Shown in pieces: positions 26,117 to 33,683 of a stretch of DNA of 34,700 bases. Below the pieces are notes generated by a model. That model saw only the letters and a program-made list of their open reading frames with translations, did not search any database and was not told where the DNA came from. The stretch spans positions 1 to 34,700 of the forward strand of contig NZ_JAQSEA010000163.1 of NCBI RefSeq assembly GCF_029946185.1. The letters are read 5' to 3'. This DNA comes from Prosthecobacter sp. (GTDB taxonomy: Bacteria; Verrucomicrobiota; Verrucomicrobiia; Verrucomicrobiales; Verrucomicrobiaceae). How positions within the stretch are numbered: the first letter of the stretch is position 1; every line of letters begins with the position of its first letter. A program made the translations under genes and the position numbers.

Positions 26117-27016
26117 GTGATCCCCCCACGCATGTATCTTAGCATTTGGTTTGGCATCATGTTGGCAGGCCAGTCAGGCTGTACAACTCAAAAGGCTGCA
26201 AAGCCGGACAAACTCGCCATCGGTGAGGCGCGCAAGGCGCTGCCTTTTGAAGAGAAAGAAAACCCGCTCGTGAAGCGGCTGAACAACCCTTCCTCCATGC
26301 CTGTCGTGCCACCTGCGGGTGCACGCACCTCGTATTCCTCCGTCAAGATCGAGCAGAAGGCGCTCGCCATGACCTTTGACGACGGCCCGCATCCGAGCCT
26401 GACTCCCAAATTGCTCGACATCCTCAAGGAGCGGAACATCAAGTGCACGTTCTTCCTCATCGGTGAGCAGGTGAAGATGTATCCCGCCATCGTGCGCCGT
26501 ATCATCGCAGAAGGCCATGAAATTGGCAATCACACCTGGACTCACTGCAGCCTCACCAGCCGCTCGGATGAGCAGATCCGCAATGAACTCAAAAAGTCCG
26601 AGGACGCCGTCTTTGAAGTAGCCGGAGTGCGTCCGCATCTGGTGCGTCCTCCTTACGGAGCCATCAACACTCGGATCAAAGACCTGATGTTCACCGAGTT
26701 CGGCTACTCCACCATCATGTGGTCCGTGGATCCGCAGGACTGGCGTCGTCCGGGTGTGTCCGTCGTGACCAGCCGCCTTGTCAATGGCGCGCATCCGGGT
26801 GCCATCATGCTCGCGCATGACATCCATCCGCCCACCATCGCCGCCGTGCCGGCGATGTTCGATCAGTTGCTGGCCAAAGGGTATCAATTCGTCACCGTGA
26901 GCCAGCTCATGAACATGGAAAAAGCCTCGATGCCCGTCGGCGTGATCATCCGTCCCGCCGAAAAGATCAACGACAAAGATCCCAAGCCGATGCCGGAGAA
27001 AAAGCCAGGCGTTTGA
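26117..27016 (+). CDS. Polysaccharide deacetylase lipoprotein (NodB domain)
   Basis: Product of 299 residues from a GTG start at 26117. That start keeps an Arg in front of the hydrophobic signal (MIPPRMYLSIWFGIMLAGQSGC, in parts) and places the lipid-carrying cysteine at 22. The ATG at 26132 is the alternative. The NodB domain spans about 82-270 with all five motifs: TFDDGPH (Asp88, Asp89), HTWTH (His139, His143), RPPYG, the DPQDW region, and MLAHDIH. Carbohydrate esterase family 4 enzymes remove N- or O-acetyl groups from peptidoglycan or other sugars with a metal held by Asp-His-His (family knowledge). The protein is anchored in the envelope. A hairpin repeat follows five bases after the stop. 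Confidence 0.9.
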   Translation: MIPPRMYLSIWFGIMLAGQSGCTTQKAAKPDKLAIGEARKALPFEEKENPLVKRLNNPSSMPVVPPAGARTSYSSVKIEQKALAMTFDDGPHPSLTPKLLDILKERNIKCTFFLIGEQVKMYPAIVRRIIAEGHEIGNHTWTHCSLTSRSDEQIRNELKKSEDAVFEVAGVRPHLVRPPYGAINTRIKDLMFTEFGYSTIMWSVDPQDWRRPGVSVVTSRLVNGAHPGAIMLAHDIHPPTIAAVPAMFDQLLAKGYQFVTVSQLMNMEKASMPVGVIIRPAEKINDKDPKPMPEKKPGV

Positions 27017-27021
27017 CTAAA

Positions 27022-27058
27022 GTAGCCTTGTTGCTGTGCAACAAGTGAGCGCTCCCGC
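27022..27058 (+). repeat. GTAGCC-triloop hairpin repeat, copy A
   Basis: GTAGCC is followed by TTGTTGC, loop TGT, and GCAACAA (27028-27044), and then by TGAGCGCTCCCGC. It has the same layout as 28701-28740 and 32003-32043 but a different stem sequence, so the pairing is kept while the bases differ. It lies directly after the deacetylase stop. Confidence 0.6.
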
Positions 27059-27107
27059 AATCGCCAAAGTCGCTCATAGCACTCCAGGCGTTGATGGGGA
27101 AAGATTG

Positions 27108-27146
27108 AAAAAAAGAAAGCGCCCCGGGCGGAGCCGAGACGCTTTC
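27108..27146 (-). terminator. Strong minus-strand intrinsic terminator
   Basis: Read on the minus strand, GAAAGCG (27146-27140) pairs with CGCTTTC (27121-27115). The inner bases CTCGG and CCGGG also pair, giving about 13 pairs with a six-base loop. A run of seven T follows directly (27114-27108). On the plus strand there is no T-run. No minus-strand protein gene lies upstream, so it must end a non-coding transcript. Confidence 0.8.
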
Positions 27147-27364
27147 AAACCCACATGTGCCGTCCGAATACAAAGGGCTCACGTATCCCATGAGACCAAG
27201 TGGGAACCCGCGTGATGAAGCTCTGTCTTCCAGTGAAGGCATGACATGTCACTTCAGCGCGTAGCCCCCGCAGTTGATGAATCGGGCCGGGCCACAAAGC
27301 TCGAAAACGAACACCGCAGGAAATTTTTCAAAGAGCAGGCCGCAGCAAAACGCCGGACCAAGAT
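27108..27364 (-). ncRNA. Candidate small RNA, unclassified
   Basis: The terminator at 27108-27146 has no minus-strand gene in front of it, yet the 557-base region between the two plus-strand genes is otherwise empty. On the minus strand the sequence can fold well. ACATG plus TGCC (near 27250-27239) pair with GGCA and CATGT (near 27162-27154), leaving a three-base bulge. Inside, TCACG...CGTGA encloses TCCCA...TGGGA (27215-27179). A promoter-like TTGATC-N17-TAGCAT (27399-27371) would start it near 27364 and give about 255 bases. The length suits 6S-type RNAs, but I could not match the conserved features of 6S, SRP, RNase P or tmRNA. The ends are estimates. Confidence 0.4.
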
Positions 27365-27370
27365 GTCCAA

Positions 27371-27399
27371 ATGCTATCCTGAAATGCCCGCATGATCAA
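27371..27399 (-). promoter_or_regulatory. Candidate promoter of the small RNA
   Basis: On the minus strand, TTGATC (27399-27394) and TAGCAT (27376-27371) are 17 bases apart, each matching four of six bases of the sigma-70 consensus. It is the best-placed promoter-like pair for the transcript that ends at 27108. Confidence 0.28.
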
Positions 27400-27427
27400 G
27401 AGCCGAGTCGCCTGGAAAAAGTACTCT

Positions 27428-27483
27428 CGAGCTTTAGCTCGTTCTGGAAGGCATCGGCATCTCCCAAAACGGGCTAAAGCTCG
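27428..27483. repeat. 11-bp inverted repeat upstream of the phosphatase-like gene
   Basis: CGAGCTTTAGC (27428-27438) is perfectly complementary to GCTAAAGCTCG (27473-27483), with 34 bases between. There is no T-run. The rest of the gap 27147-27573 holds the candidate small RNA and no convincing open reading frame. Confidence 0.6.
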
Positions 27484-27573
27484 CGACGACTCAGGCACGC
27501 CACGCCCCTCGCATAGATACAATCTTGAGTGTTCAATGTTCAGCGTTCCCTCCGTTTGTTTCAGCTGACACTC

Positions 27574-32378: not shown

Positions 32379-33683
32379 TCACTTCATCACCATCGGCTGC
32401 CCCGTGCATTCCAGCACGCTGTGCCACAGCTCCTGCGTAGGATCGACCTTGCGACGACCATGGATGACGAGTTCCAGCGGCAGATGCACATACGAATTGT
32501 GCCATCGGCCCACCAGCATGTTCGTCTTGCCCGCCATCGCCGCATGCACTGCGTTTTGCGCAAGGCGTGAGCAGTACACATTGTCCTGCGCGTTGGCTGG
32601 CACGCTGCGTACGATGTAGCTCGGGTCGATGTACTTGAGGTTTACCTCGGTCTTCCGTTCCTTGAAGAAGGCATTGATGCGGTCCTTCAAAAACGGGCCG
32701 ATGTCGCCGTAGCGCTTGTTGCCGCTGGCATCGGTCTCATTGCTGGTTTCCATGAGGTGCTGCCCCGCACCTTCCGCCACCACGATCACGGCGCTGCCAC
32801 GTTTGGTCAGCCGTTGCCGCAGAAATTCCAGAAAGCCAGCTTCGCCTTCGAGTTCAAAATGCACCTCCGGAATCAGTACAAAATCCACGTTGCTGCCTGC
32901 CAGCGCCGCATAGCACGCGATGAATCCTGAATCACGTCCCATGAGCTTCACCAAGCCCACGCCGTTCACCGCGCCCGTCGCCTCGACATACGCACATTTC
33001 ACCGCCTGCACGGCGGCATCGAAGGCCGTTTCAAATCCAAAGCTCTTGTCGAGATGGCGGATGTCGTTGTCGATGGTCTTTGGAATTCCGACCACCGCTT
33101 TCTTCAATCCGCGCCGTTCAATTTCCTTCACGATCTCCGCCGCGCCGCGCAGCGTGCCGTCCCCACCGATGACGAAGAGAATATCGACCTTCATGTCCTC
33201 CAGCGTGTCCACCATCTCACCGATGTCCTGCTTGCCTCGCGAGCTTCCCAGCAGCGTCCCGCCAAAGTGGTGCGCCTGTTCAACCGACGTAGGTTTAAGC
33301 AGCAGCGGCGTGTGGCCAAAGCGCTGCACCAGCCCCTCGTAGCCGTAGCGAAAGCCATACACACGCGCGACTCCGTATTGTTGATGGCAGCGGTTCACGA
33401 TGCCACGGATGATGTCGTTCAAGCCTGGGCAGAGACCGCCGCACGTCACGATGCCGACCGTGGTCTTGGCCGTGTCAAAATAGATCATCTCCCGCGGCCC
33501 CGCCTCTTCGTAGCTCGGCGTTGACACATCACGCCCGTCTTCGAGGAGGTGGCTGTGATAGAGAATGCGGTCTGTCGCGTCCTTTTTATAGGGTGCCTCC
33601 ACCCCGCCAATGCGGTGCAGAGGCGAGTGAATCGTACAGGGGCCGAGCGTGGGGATGCTCGTGTCGGAGGGGGCTGGGGTCAT
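32379..33683 (-). CDS. pfkA: 6-phosphofructokinase, probably ATP-dependent (long group)
   Basis: Product of 434 residues, longer than E. coli PfkA (320) and like the long bacterial, plant and trypanosome group. It phosphorylates fructose 6-phosphate in glycolysis. GIVTCGGLCPGLNDIIRG (77-94) begins the fold. GGDGT (173-177) has Gly at the position that is Asp in pyrophosphate-dependent enzymes, which favours ATP. PKTIDND (201-207) carries the catalytic Asp and has the Lys seen in pyrophosphate enzymes and also in long ATP enzymes. MGRDSGF and PEVHFELEG bind sugar phosphate. It is divergent from the KDPG aldolase gene across 132 bases, placing glycolytic and Entner-Doudoroff entry steps side by side. 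Confidence 0.92.
   Translation of the reverse strand: MTPAPSDTSIPTLGPCTIHSPLHRIGGVEAPYKKDATDRILYHSHLLEDGRDVSTPSYEEAGPREMIYFDTAKTTVGIVTCGGLCPGLNDIIRGIVNRCHQQYGVARVYGFRYGYEGLVQRFGHTPLLLKPTSVEQAHHFGGTLLGSSRGKQDIGEMVDTLEDMKVDILFVIGGDGTLRGAAEIVKEIERRGLKKAVVGIPKTIDNDIRHLDKSFGFETAFDAAVQAVKCAYVEATGAVNGVGLVKLMGRDSGFIACYAALAGSNVDFVLIPEVHFELEGEAGFLEFLRQRLTKRGSAVIVVAEGAGQHLMETSNETDASGNKRYGDIGPFLKDRINAFFKERKTEVNLKYIDPSYIVRSVPANAQDNVYCSRLAQNAVHAAMAGKTNMLVGRWHNSYVHLPLELVIHGRRKVDPTQELWHSVLECTGQPMVMK

Follow-up and report, generated by a model that had tools for sequence, protein, structure and literature searches.

6S RNA (Rfam RF00013, gene ssrS) and the boxA element of rRNA operons are the described systems closest to the locus reported here. 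In the rRNA operons of Escherichia coli, NusB binds boxA, and boxA suffices to recruit the antitermination factors, as set out in the sections of PMC10250234 on which we draw. The same sections describe a model in which boxA keeps the leader tethered close to the RNA exit channel, for pairing with the trailer once that has emerged (PMC10250234). For boxA outside rRNA, the sections of PMC5725501 used here name suhB as a tested target and rpsJ, prsA, and others as predicted ones; by its own statement there, that survey left non-coding RNAs out of consideration. Within the open-licence literature, where a null result is weak evidence, we found no paper linking boxA to 6S RNA, and co-mentions of the two terms appear to be incidental. 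Verrucomicrobial 6S RNAs may already be listed in the 6S surveys of Barrick 2005 and Wehner 2014.

The locus lies in a 34,700-nt stretch of Prosthecobacter sp. DNA (hereafter, the window). Its RNA resembles known 6S RNA in giving a full-length match of 182 nt with a long terminal stem and an internal bubble, in carrying a template-like CCGAU, and in having its own gene between protein genes. It differs from E. coli ssrS in that its leader contains a hairpin and a boxA-like element; the corresponding motif, GNTCTTT, was sought in the 140 nt upstream of E. coli ssrS and none was found. The neighbors also differ, being deacetylase and phosphoesterase genes in the window and zapA and fau at E. coli ssrS. 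With the boxA of rRNA operons the element shares its core sequence and its predicted place in an untranslated leader downstream of a promoter, and the order of hairpin and boxA resembles the boxB-boxA order of E. coli rRNA operons as far as the cited sections of PMC10250234 describe it. Unlike an rRNA operon, however, the predicted transcript is a regulatory RNA of about 255 nt. Finally, the locus is like suhB, rpsJ, and prsA in that its boxA would lie in a non-rRNA transcript but unlike them in that those targets, in the sections cited, are protein genes (PMC5725501).

Results

The initial annotation of the window had proposed an unannotated small RNA on the minus strand and suggested an Rfam search, with 6S among the candidates that it named. 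Scanning the whole window at gathering cut-offs yielded a sole match, to RF00013 (27325-27144, minus strand), which covers positions 1-187 of the 187-position model and scores 47.1 bits against a cut-off of 46.4. Two other candidates, Ms_IGR-7 (17.1 bits; cut-off, 45) and ncS54 (16.4 bits; cut-off, 43), were rejected as weak matches. As the margin of the 6S match is thin (0.7 bits), we sought independent support.

The 6.19-Mb genome contains this single 6S match. At E <= 0.001, one match each was recovered from 41 of 56 relatives, from 112 of 191 members of the order, and from 144 of a phylum-wide sample of 288 genomes, these being overlapping genome sets searched with stricter filters that miss weak matches. 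In the phylum sample, 101 of the 288 genomes were over the cut-off. Such scores bear on whether the RNA might be a 6S relative that binds the RNA polymerase core, like Ms1 of Actinobacteria, and not the holoenzyme. The marginal Rfam score in the window's genus would fit an RNA of that type, but the match to the 6S model is full-length, the template-like stretch aligns with that of E. coli, and scores elsewhere in the phylum reach 100.7 bits, all of which makes this reading very improbable.

For a 6S RNA, the pRNA template is predicted at 27281-27292 (minus strand) from the Rfam alignment and from a side-by-side reading with E. coli ssrS. By both, the U at 27281 lines up with position 44 of E. 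coli ssrS, which we take to be the start of the pRNA in that species. The pRNA at our locus would begin opposite 27281 and run along the plus strand (ATCGGGCCGGGC...).

A single-sequence fold of the 262 nt from 27369 to 27108 is not unusually stable (z of -0.64, equalled or bettered by 52 of 200 shuffles). Folding alone therefore provides no evidence, and we compared relatives instead, using 67 aligned loci (65 distinct rows) from families f1, f3, f4, and f6 and the 39 standard pairs of the window sequence. Over the distinct rows, 89.2% of cells were paired, compared to 34.5-48.9% with the partner slid by 1-3 positions, a measure on which the tested structure is favored because it derives from the Rfam alignment of the window sequence itself. 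Changes on both sides were seen in 19 of the 39 pairs, compared to 9-15 when slid. The pairing contrast is strong, and the contrast in both-sided changes is modest. The folding that had been suggested for the bases before the terminator is thus unremarkable as a single-sequence fold, whereas the 6S structure, with its terminal stem, central bubble, and apical arm, is conserved among relatives. The primary sequence is conserved as well, with 175 of 182 columns within 6S invariant in the window and eight close relatives, so that the conservation on which the small RNA had been said to depend extends to both sequence and structure. Judged by homology and pairing, the RNA is an ordinary, previously unannotated 6S RNA with a stand-alone gene.

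We aligned the window with eight closely related genomes from 140 nt upstream to 60 nt downstream of the gene. The promoter candidate put forward earlier, TTGATC-N17-TAGCAT, is located at 27399-27371 (minus strand) and is conserved in this nine-genome alignment. Invariant columns make up 5/6 of the -35 hexamer, 3/6 of the -10 hexamer, 6/17 of the spacer, 4/11 of the "-45 to -35" segment, and 10/66 of the flank further upstream. A plain consensus promoter scan does not have TTGATC-N17-TAGCAT among its listed sites. Transcription is expected to start near 27364, and the predicted precursor, from about 27364 to 27108, has the length of approximately 255 nt that had been estimated.

At the 3′ end, the terminator scan identifies an intrinsic terminator at 27146-27108 (minus strand). 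Its hairpin (27146-27115) has 13 pairs, 8 of them G-C, and a loop of 6, and is followed by seven T (27114-27108). The site had been called the clearest terminator in the window, and it does surpass the other candidates in pairs and in G-C pairs. Two scans covering the window returned 21 and 18 terminator-like sites compared to shuffle means of 15.7 and 20.3; as these totals resemble the shuffle means, the other sites are mostly attributable to chance. Invariant columns number 30/32 in the hairpin, 6/7 in the T-run, and 2/22 beyond it. A terminator-like site also follows 39 of the 42 6S genes of the window's family (control, 0/42) and 74 of 171 6S genes overall (control, 15). As read from the alignment, the parts first proposed are conserved, as is the boxA-like word described below, and conservation ends where the gene should end. 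The minus-strand small RNA has in this way become a 6S RNA by Rfam, with a conserved promoter, a conserved RNA, and a strong terminator.

It had also been stated that no minus-strand protein gene precedes the terminator for 5 kb, which agrees with the Pfam matches: the first matching minus-strand frame upstream is a phosphofructokinase (32379-33683, minus strand), approximately 5.2 kb away, and ten minus-strand frames of 100-170 aa between it and the small RNA have no Pfam match. We rejected a 91-aa minus-strand frame (26967-27242) as a gene; it has no Pfam match and overlaps the 3′ half of 6S and the terminator. The deacetylase and phosphoesterase genes that flank 6S in the window recur to a limited extent. 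A deacetylase gene adjoins 6S in 17 of 90 loci longer than 2 kb, counting the window, all of them in family f1 (35 such loci), and a phosphoesterase gene is near 6S in 10 of the 90. Both counts are limited by the fact that most of the 90 loci carry just about 1.5 kb per side. Inverted copies of a GAGCTTTAGCTCG / GGGCTAAAGCTCG word are located at 27427-27485, just upstream of the 6S promoter.

The leader contains a hairpin (GGTCCGGC-GTTTT-GCTGCGGCC; 27359-27338, minus strand) directly followed by the word TGCTCTTTGAAA (27337-27326, minus strand), which abuts the 5′ end of 6S. In the nine genomes, 15 of 22 hairpin columns and 11 of 12 columns of the word are invariant; one hairpin pair varies among U-G, C-G, and U-A, and one genome cannot form the outermost pair. 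Situated between the promoter and 6S, TGCTCTTTGAAA matches rRNA-operon boxA and is an addition to the earlier account of this locus. Because the predicted promoter sits upstream of it, boxA should be within the RNA. The full word occurs exactly once in the 6.19-Mb genome, and the shorter GYTCTTTGA, expected 0.75 times in the window, was found there once. The window alone is compatible with a chance origin of the word, which we nonetheless rejected, as the comparison across loci speaks against it. The same genome encodes a NusB domain in a 175-aa frame (113 bits) and a Rho RNA-binding domain. A 16S match was sought in its assembly and none was found; the rRNA boxA comparison rests on related genomes.

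To place the element in the phylum, we assembled 171 6S loci from 171 genomes in 45 families, a set that does not include about 61 further loci with a match. GNTCTTT is present within 120 nt upstream of 6S in 86 of the 171 loci, representing 21 of the 45 families. As loci inside one family are related, the family count is the safer figure. The controls yielded 4 loci (4 families) on the reverse strand, 3 loci (3 families) in the next 120 nt upstream, 12 of 171 within the first 120 nt of the 6S RNA, and a mean of 10.2 with a maximum of 15 over 20 rounds of shuffling. Requiring in addition an A after two or three more bases left 84 loci compared to 1, 1, 1, and 3.35 in the controls. We also built a matrix from 35 rRNA boxA sites. 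At 11 bits or more it recognizes 65 of the 171 6S loci (18 families) and none of the controls (0/171, 0/170, and 0/171); at 8 bits or more it recognizes 78, compared to 5, 4, and 0 in controls.

The motif is distributed unevenly among families. GNTCTTT occurs in 41 of 42 loci of f1, 10 of 19 of f3, 4 of 5 of f4, 4 of 4 of f23, 3 of 3 of f24, 5 of 5 of f29, and 3 of 3 of f34, and is absent from f2 (0/22), f9 (0/12), f7 (0/4), f26 (0/4), and 20 smaller families. With 85 of the 171 loci lacking GNTCTTT, 6S genes of the phylum can do without the element. Two records, CAMAZK010000026.1 (titled Akkermansia muciniphila) and JAIXYM010000105.1 (titled Oxalobacteraceae), here L283 and L285, match the boxA-6S pattern of the window's order and may be mislabelled or mixed.

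Predicted promoters were placed relative to the motif at the same loci. Of the 78 loci that reach 8 bits, 58 have their best-scoring promoter upstream of boxA and 8 have it ending within 15 nt of 6S, the latter being the case in 43 of the 93 matrix-negative loci. The motif thus accompanies a leader, which favors its being a boxA. In f2 and f9, the largest motif-free families, the best promoter lies within 15 nt of 6S in 14 of 22 and 12 of 12 loci, respectively (e.g., L035 and L107). Some motif-free loci, forming part of f3, seem to have a leader. The distance from boxA to 6S varies from 11 to 96 nt, as expected for an RNA element and unlike a promoter element. At least 20 nt separate the two in 56 of the 78 positive loci; against mononucleotide shuffles these 56 stretches have a mean folding z of -2.45, with 38 below -1.5, compared to a mean of -0.70, with 11 of 56 below -1.5, for equal lengths upstream of boxA. 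A hairpin thus tends to follow boxA in those 56 loci; in the window it precedes boxA.

Among 23 phylum genomes in which the 16S flanks were read, 20 have GNTCTTT within 350 nt before 16S, and in many genomes the 16S-23S spacer carries it as well (e.g., GTTCTTTGACAACTGCAT). In the window's genus, the rRNA-leader boxA is GATCTTTCAG or near it, and the 6S motif, GCTCTTTGAAA, is closer to the rRNA-spacer copy, GTTCTTTGACA. Two small-genome members of f2, G042 and G054, have an rRNA leader without GNTCTTT; two other f2 genomes, G119 and G136, have GNTCTTT there.

One genome, G044 (L038 and L044), carries GTTCATTG in both the leader and the spacer of its rRNA as well as in the leader of 6S, where the usual word is GNTCTTTG / GTTCTTTG. 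This T-to-A change, common to the rRNA and 6S copies, favors the identification of the 6S motif as boxA, on the sequences of this one genome. A further word in its rRNA spacer, GTTCTTTACGG, keeps the usual T. The specificity of NusB or S10 may have shifted in G044. The same T-to-A word (GNTCATTGA) is found in two other 6S leaders (L068 and L173). A 6S match was found in 6 of 13 genomes of the G044 family and in none of three other members of its genus.

These comparisons bear on a reading in which the RNA is 6S and the motif is an endonuclease processing site that trims the leader, or a DNA element, with a convergent likeness to boxA. Leadered 6S precursors would need 5′ trimming, loci with a predicted leader are those that most often carry the motif, and the copy in the window directly adjoins the 5′ end given by Rfam. 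However, a spacing of 11-96 nt, often with a hairpin in between, fits neither cleavage at the RNA end nor a promoter element at a fixed position. Convergence also sits poorly with a matrix that was trained on rRNA boxA and recognizes the 6S motif, and with rRNA and 6S copies altered alike in G044. We consider this reading unlikely.

To ask how the element is shared among stable RNAs, we turned to 30 genomes, many of them chosen for their 6S motif, which inflates the 6S count (29/30) in this set. GNTCTTT lies upstream of RNase P RNA (rnpB) in 3 of 30 (L219, L231, and L232; reverse strand, 0) and upstream of tmRNA in 7 of 27 (L241, L242, L243, L245, L247, L255, and L258; reverse strand, 1), and seven of these ten words sit 14-17 nt from the RNA. 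We rejected a general habit of stable RNAs as the explanation on these counts for rnpB and tmRNA against those for 6S. A boxA may thus precede stable RNAs other than 6S, with 6S the most consistent case.

Discussion

We think it probable that the locus is a stand-alone 6S gene with a boxA in its leader, transcribed with a NusB/S10 complex of the rRNA type. The gene and its conservation, the promoter, the boxA-like motif, and the terminator are visible at the level of sequence. The course of transcription, Nus-factor binding, processing, and regulation that we infer would begin at a sigma-70-type promoter, with a precursor of about 255 nt made up of a first part of approximately 38 nt with the hairpin and boxA, then the 182-nt 6S RNA, and then the intrinsic terminator. 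In the nascent leader, boxA would recruit NusB-S10 and other Nus factors, as in rRNA operons.

A transcript of 255 nt has little need for antitermination of the rRNA-operon kind. 6S RNA must pair both of its ends across about 180 nt; we therefore suggest that boxA serves to protect the transcript from Rho and to help the terminal stem close. The Nus complex would shield the untranslated transcript from Rho, and boxA may keep the 5′ strand anchored at the RNA exit channel; once the 3′ strand has emerged, the long terminal stem would close. The leader would be removed afterwards. The 6S RNA would imitate an open promoter and so bind the housekeeping RNA polymerase holoenzyme; transcription of a short pRNA from the 6S template would then free the RNA.

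By analogy with E. coli suhB, as treated in the cited sections of PMC5725501, a repressive boxA is a real alternative. Nus factors on the leader would then promote Rho-dependent termination or otherwise lower 6S, as a feedback from free S10 or NusB, and the genome does encode a Rho domain of its own. However, those sections describe the suhB effect as acting via repression of translation and ascribe it to a loop between boxA and the polymerase, not to simple occlusion (PMC5725501), whereas 6S is untranslated, short, and ended by an intrinsic terminator. Repression is thus improbable as the role of this element, and transcription with the rRNA-type complex is the reading that we carry forward.

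More tentatively, and as something possible rather than expected, the rRNA antitermination machinery of Verrucomicrobiota may be a general stable-RNA machinery, with boxA at the head of 6S in many families and of RNase P RNA and tmRNA in some lineages. S10 belongs to the ribosome and, as a Nus factor, also binds boxA, so that the amount of free S10 would couple the output of 6S, an inhibitor of RNA polymerase, to ribosome synthesis. The tethered boxA would also aid 6S folding by drawing its two distant ends together.

For the phylum, this work provides 6S annotations, the standard model having matched half of the sampled genomes. The tether proposal, as given in the cited sections of PMC10250234, becomes testable in an RNA approximately eight times shorter than 16S rRNA. 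6S RNA governs the use of RNA polymerase, and boxA is a hallmark of rRNA transcription; a conserved boxA on 6S genes would join both control circuits and give boxA a stable non-ribosomal RNA target.
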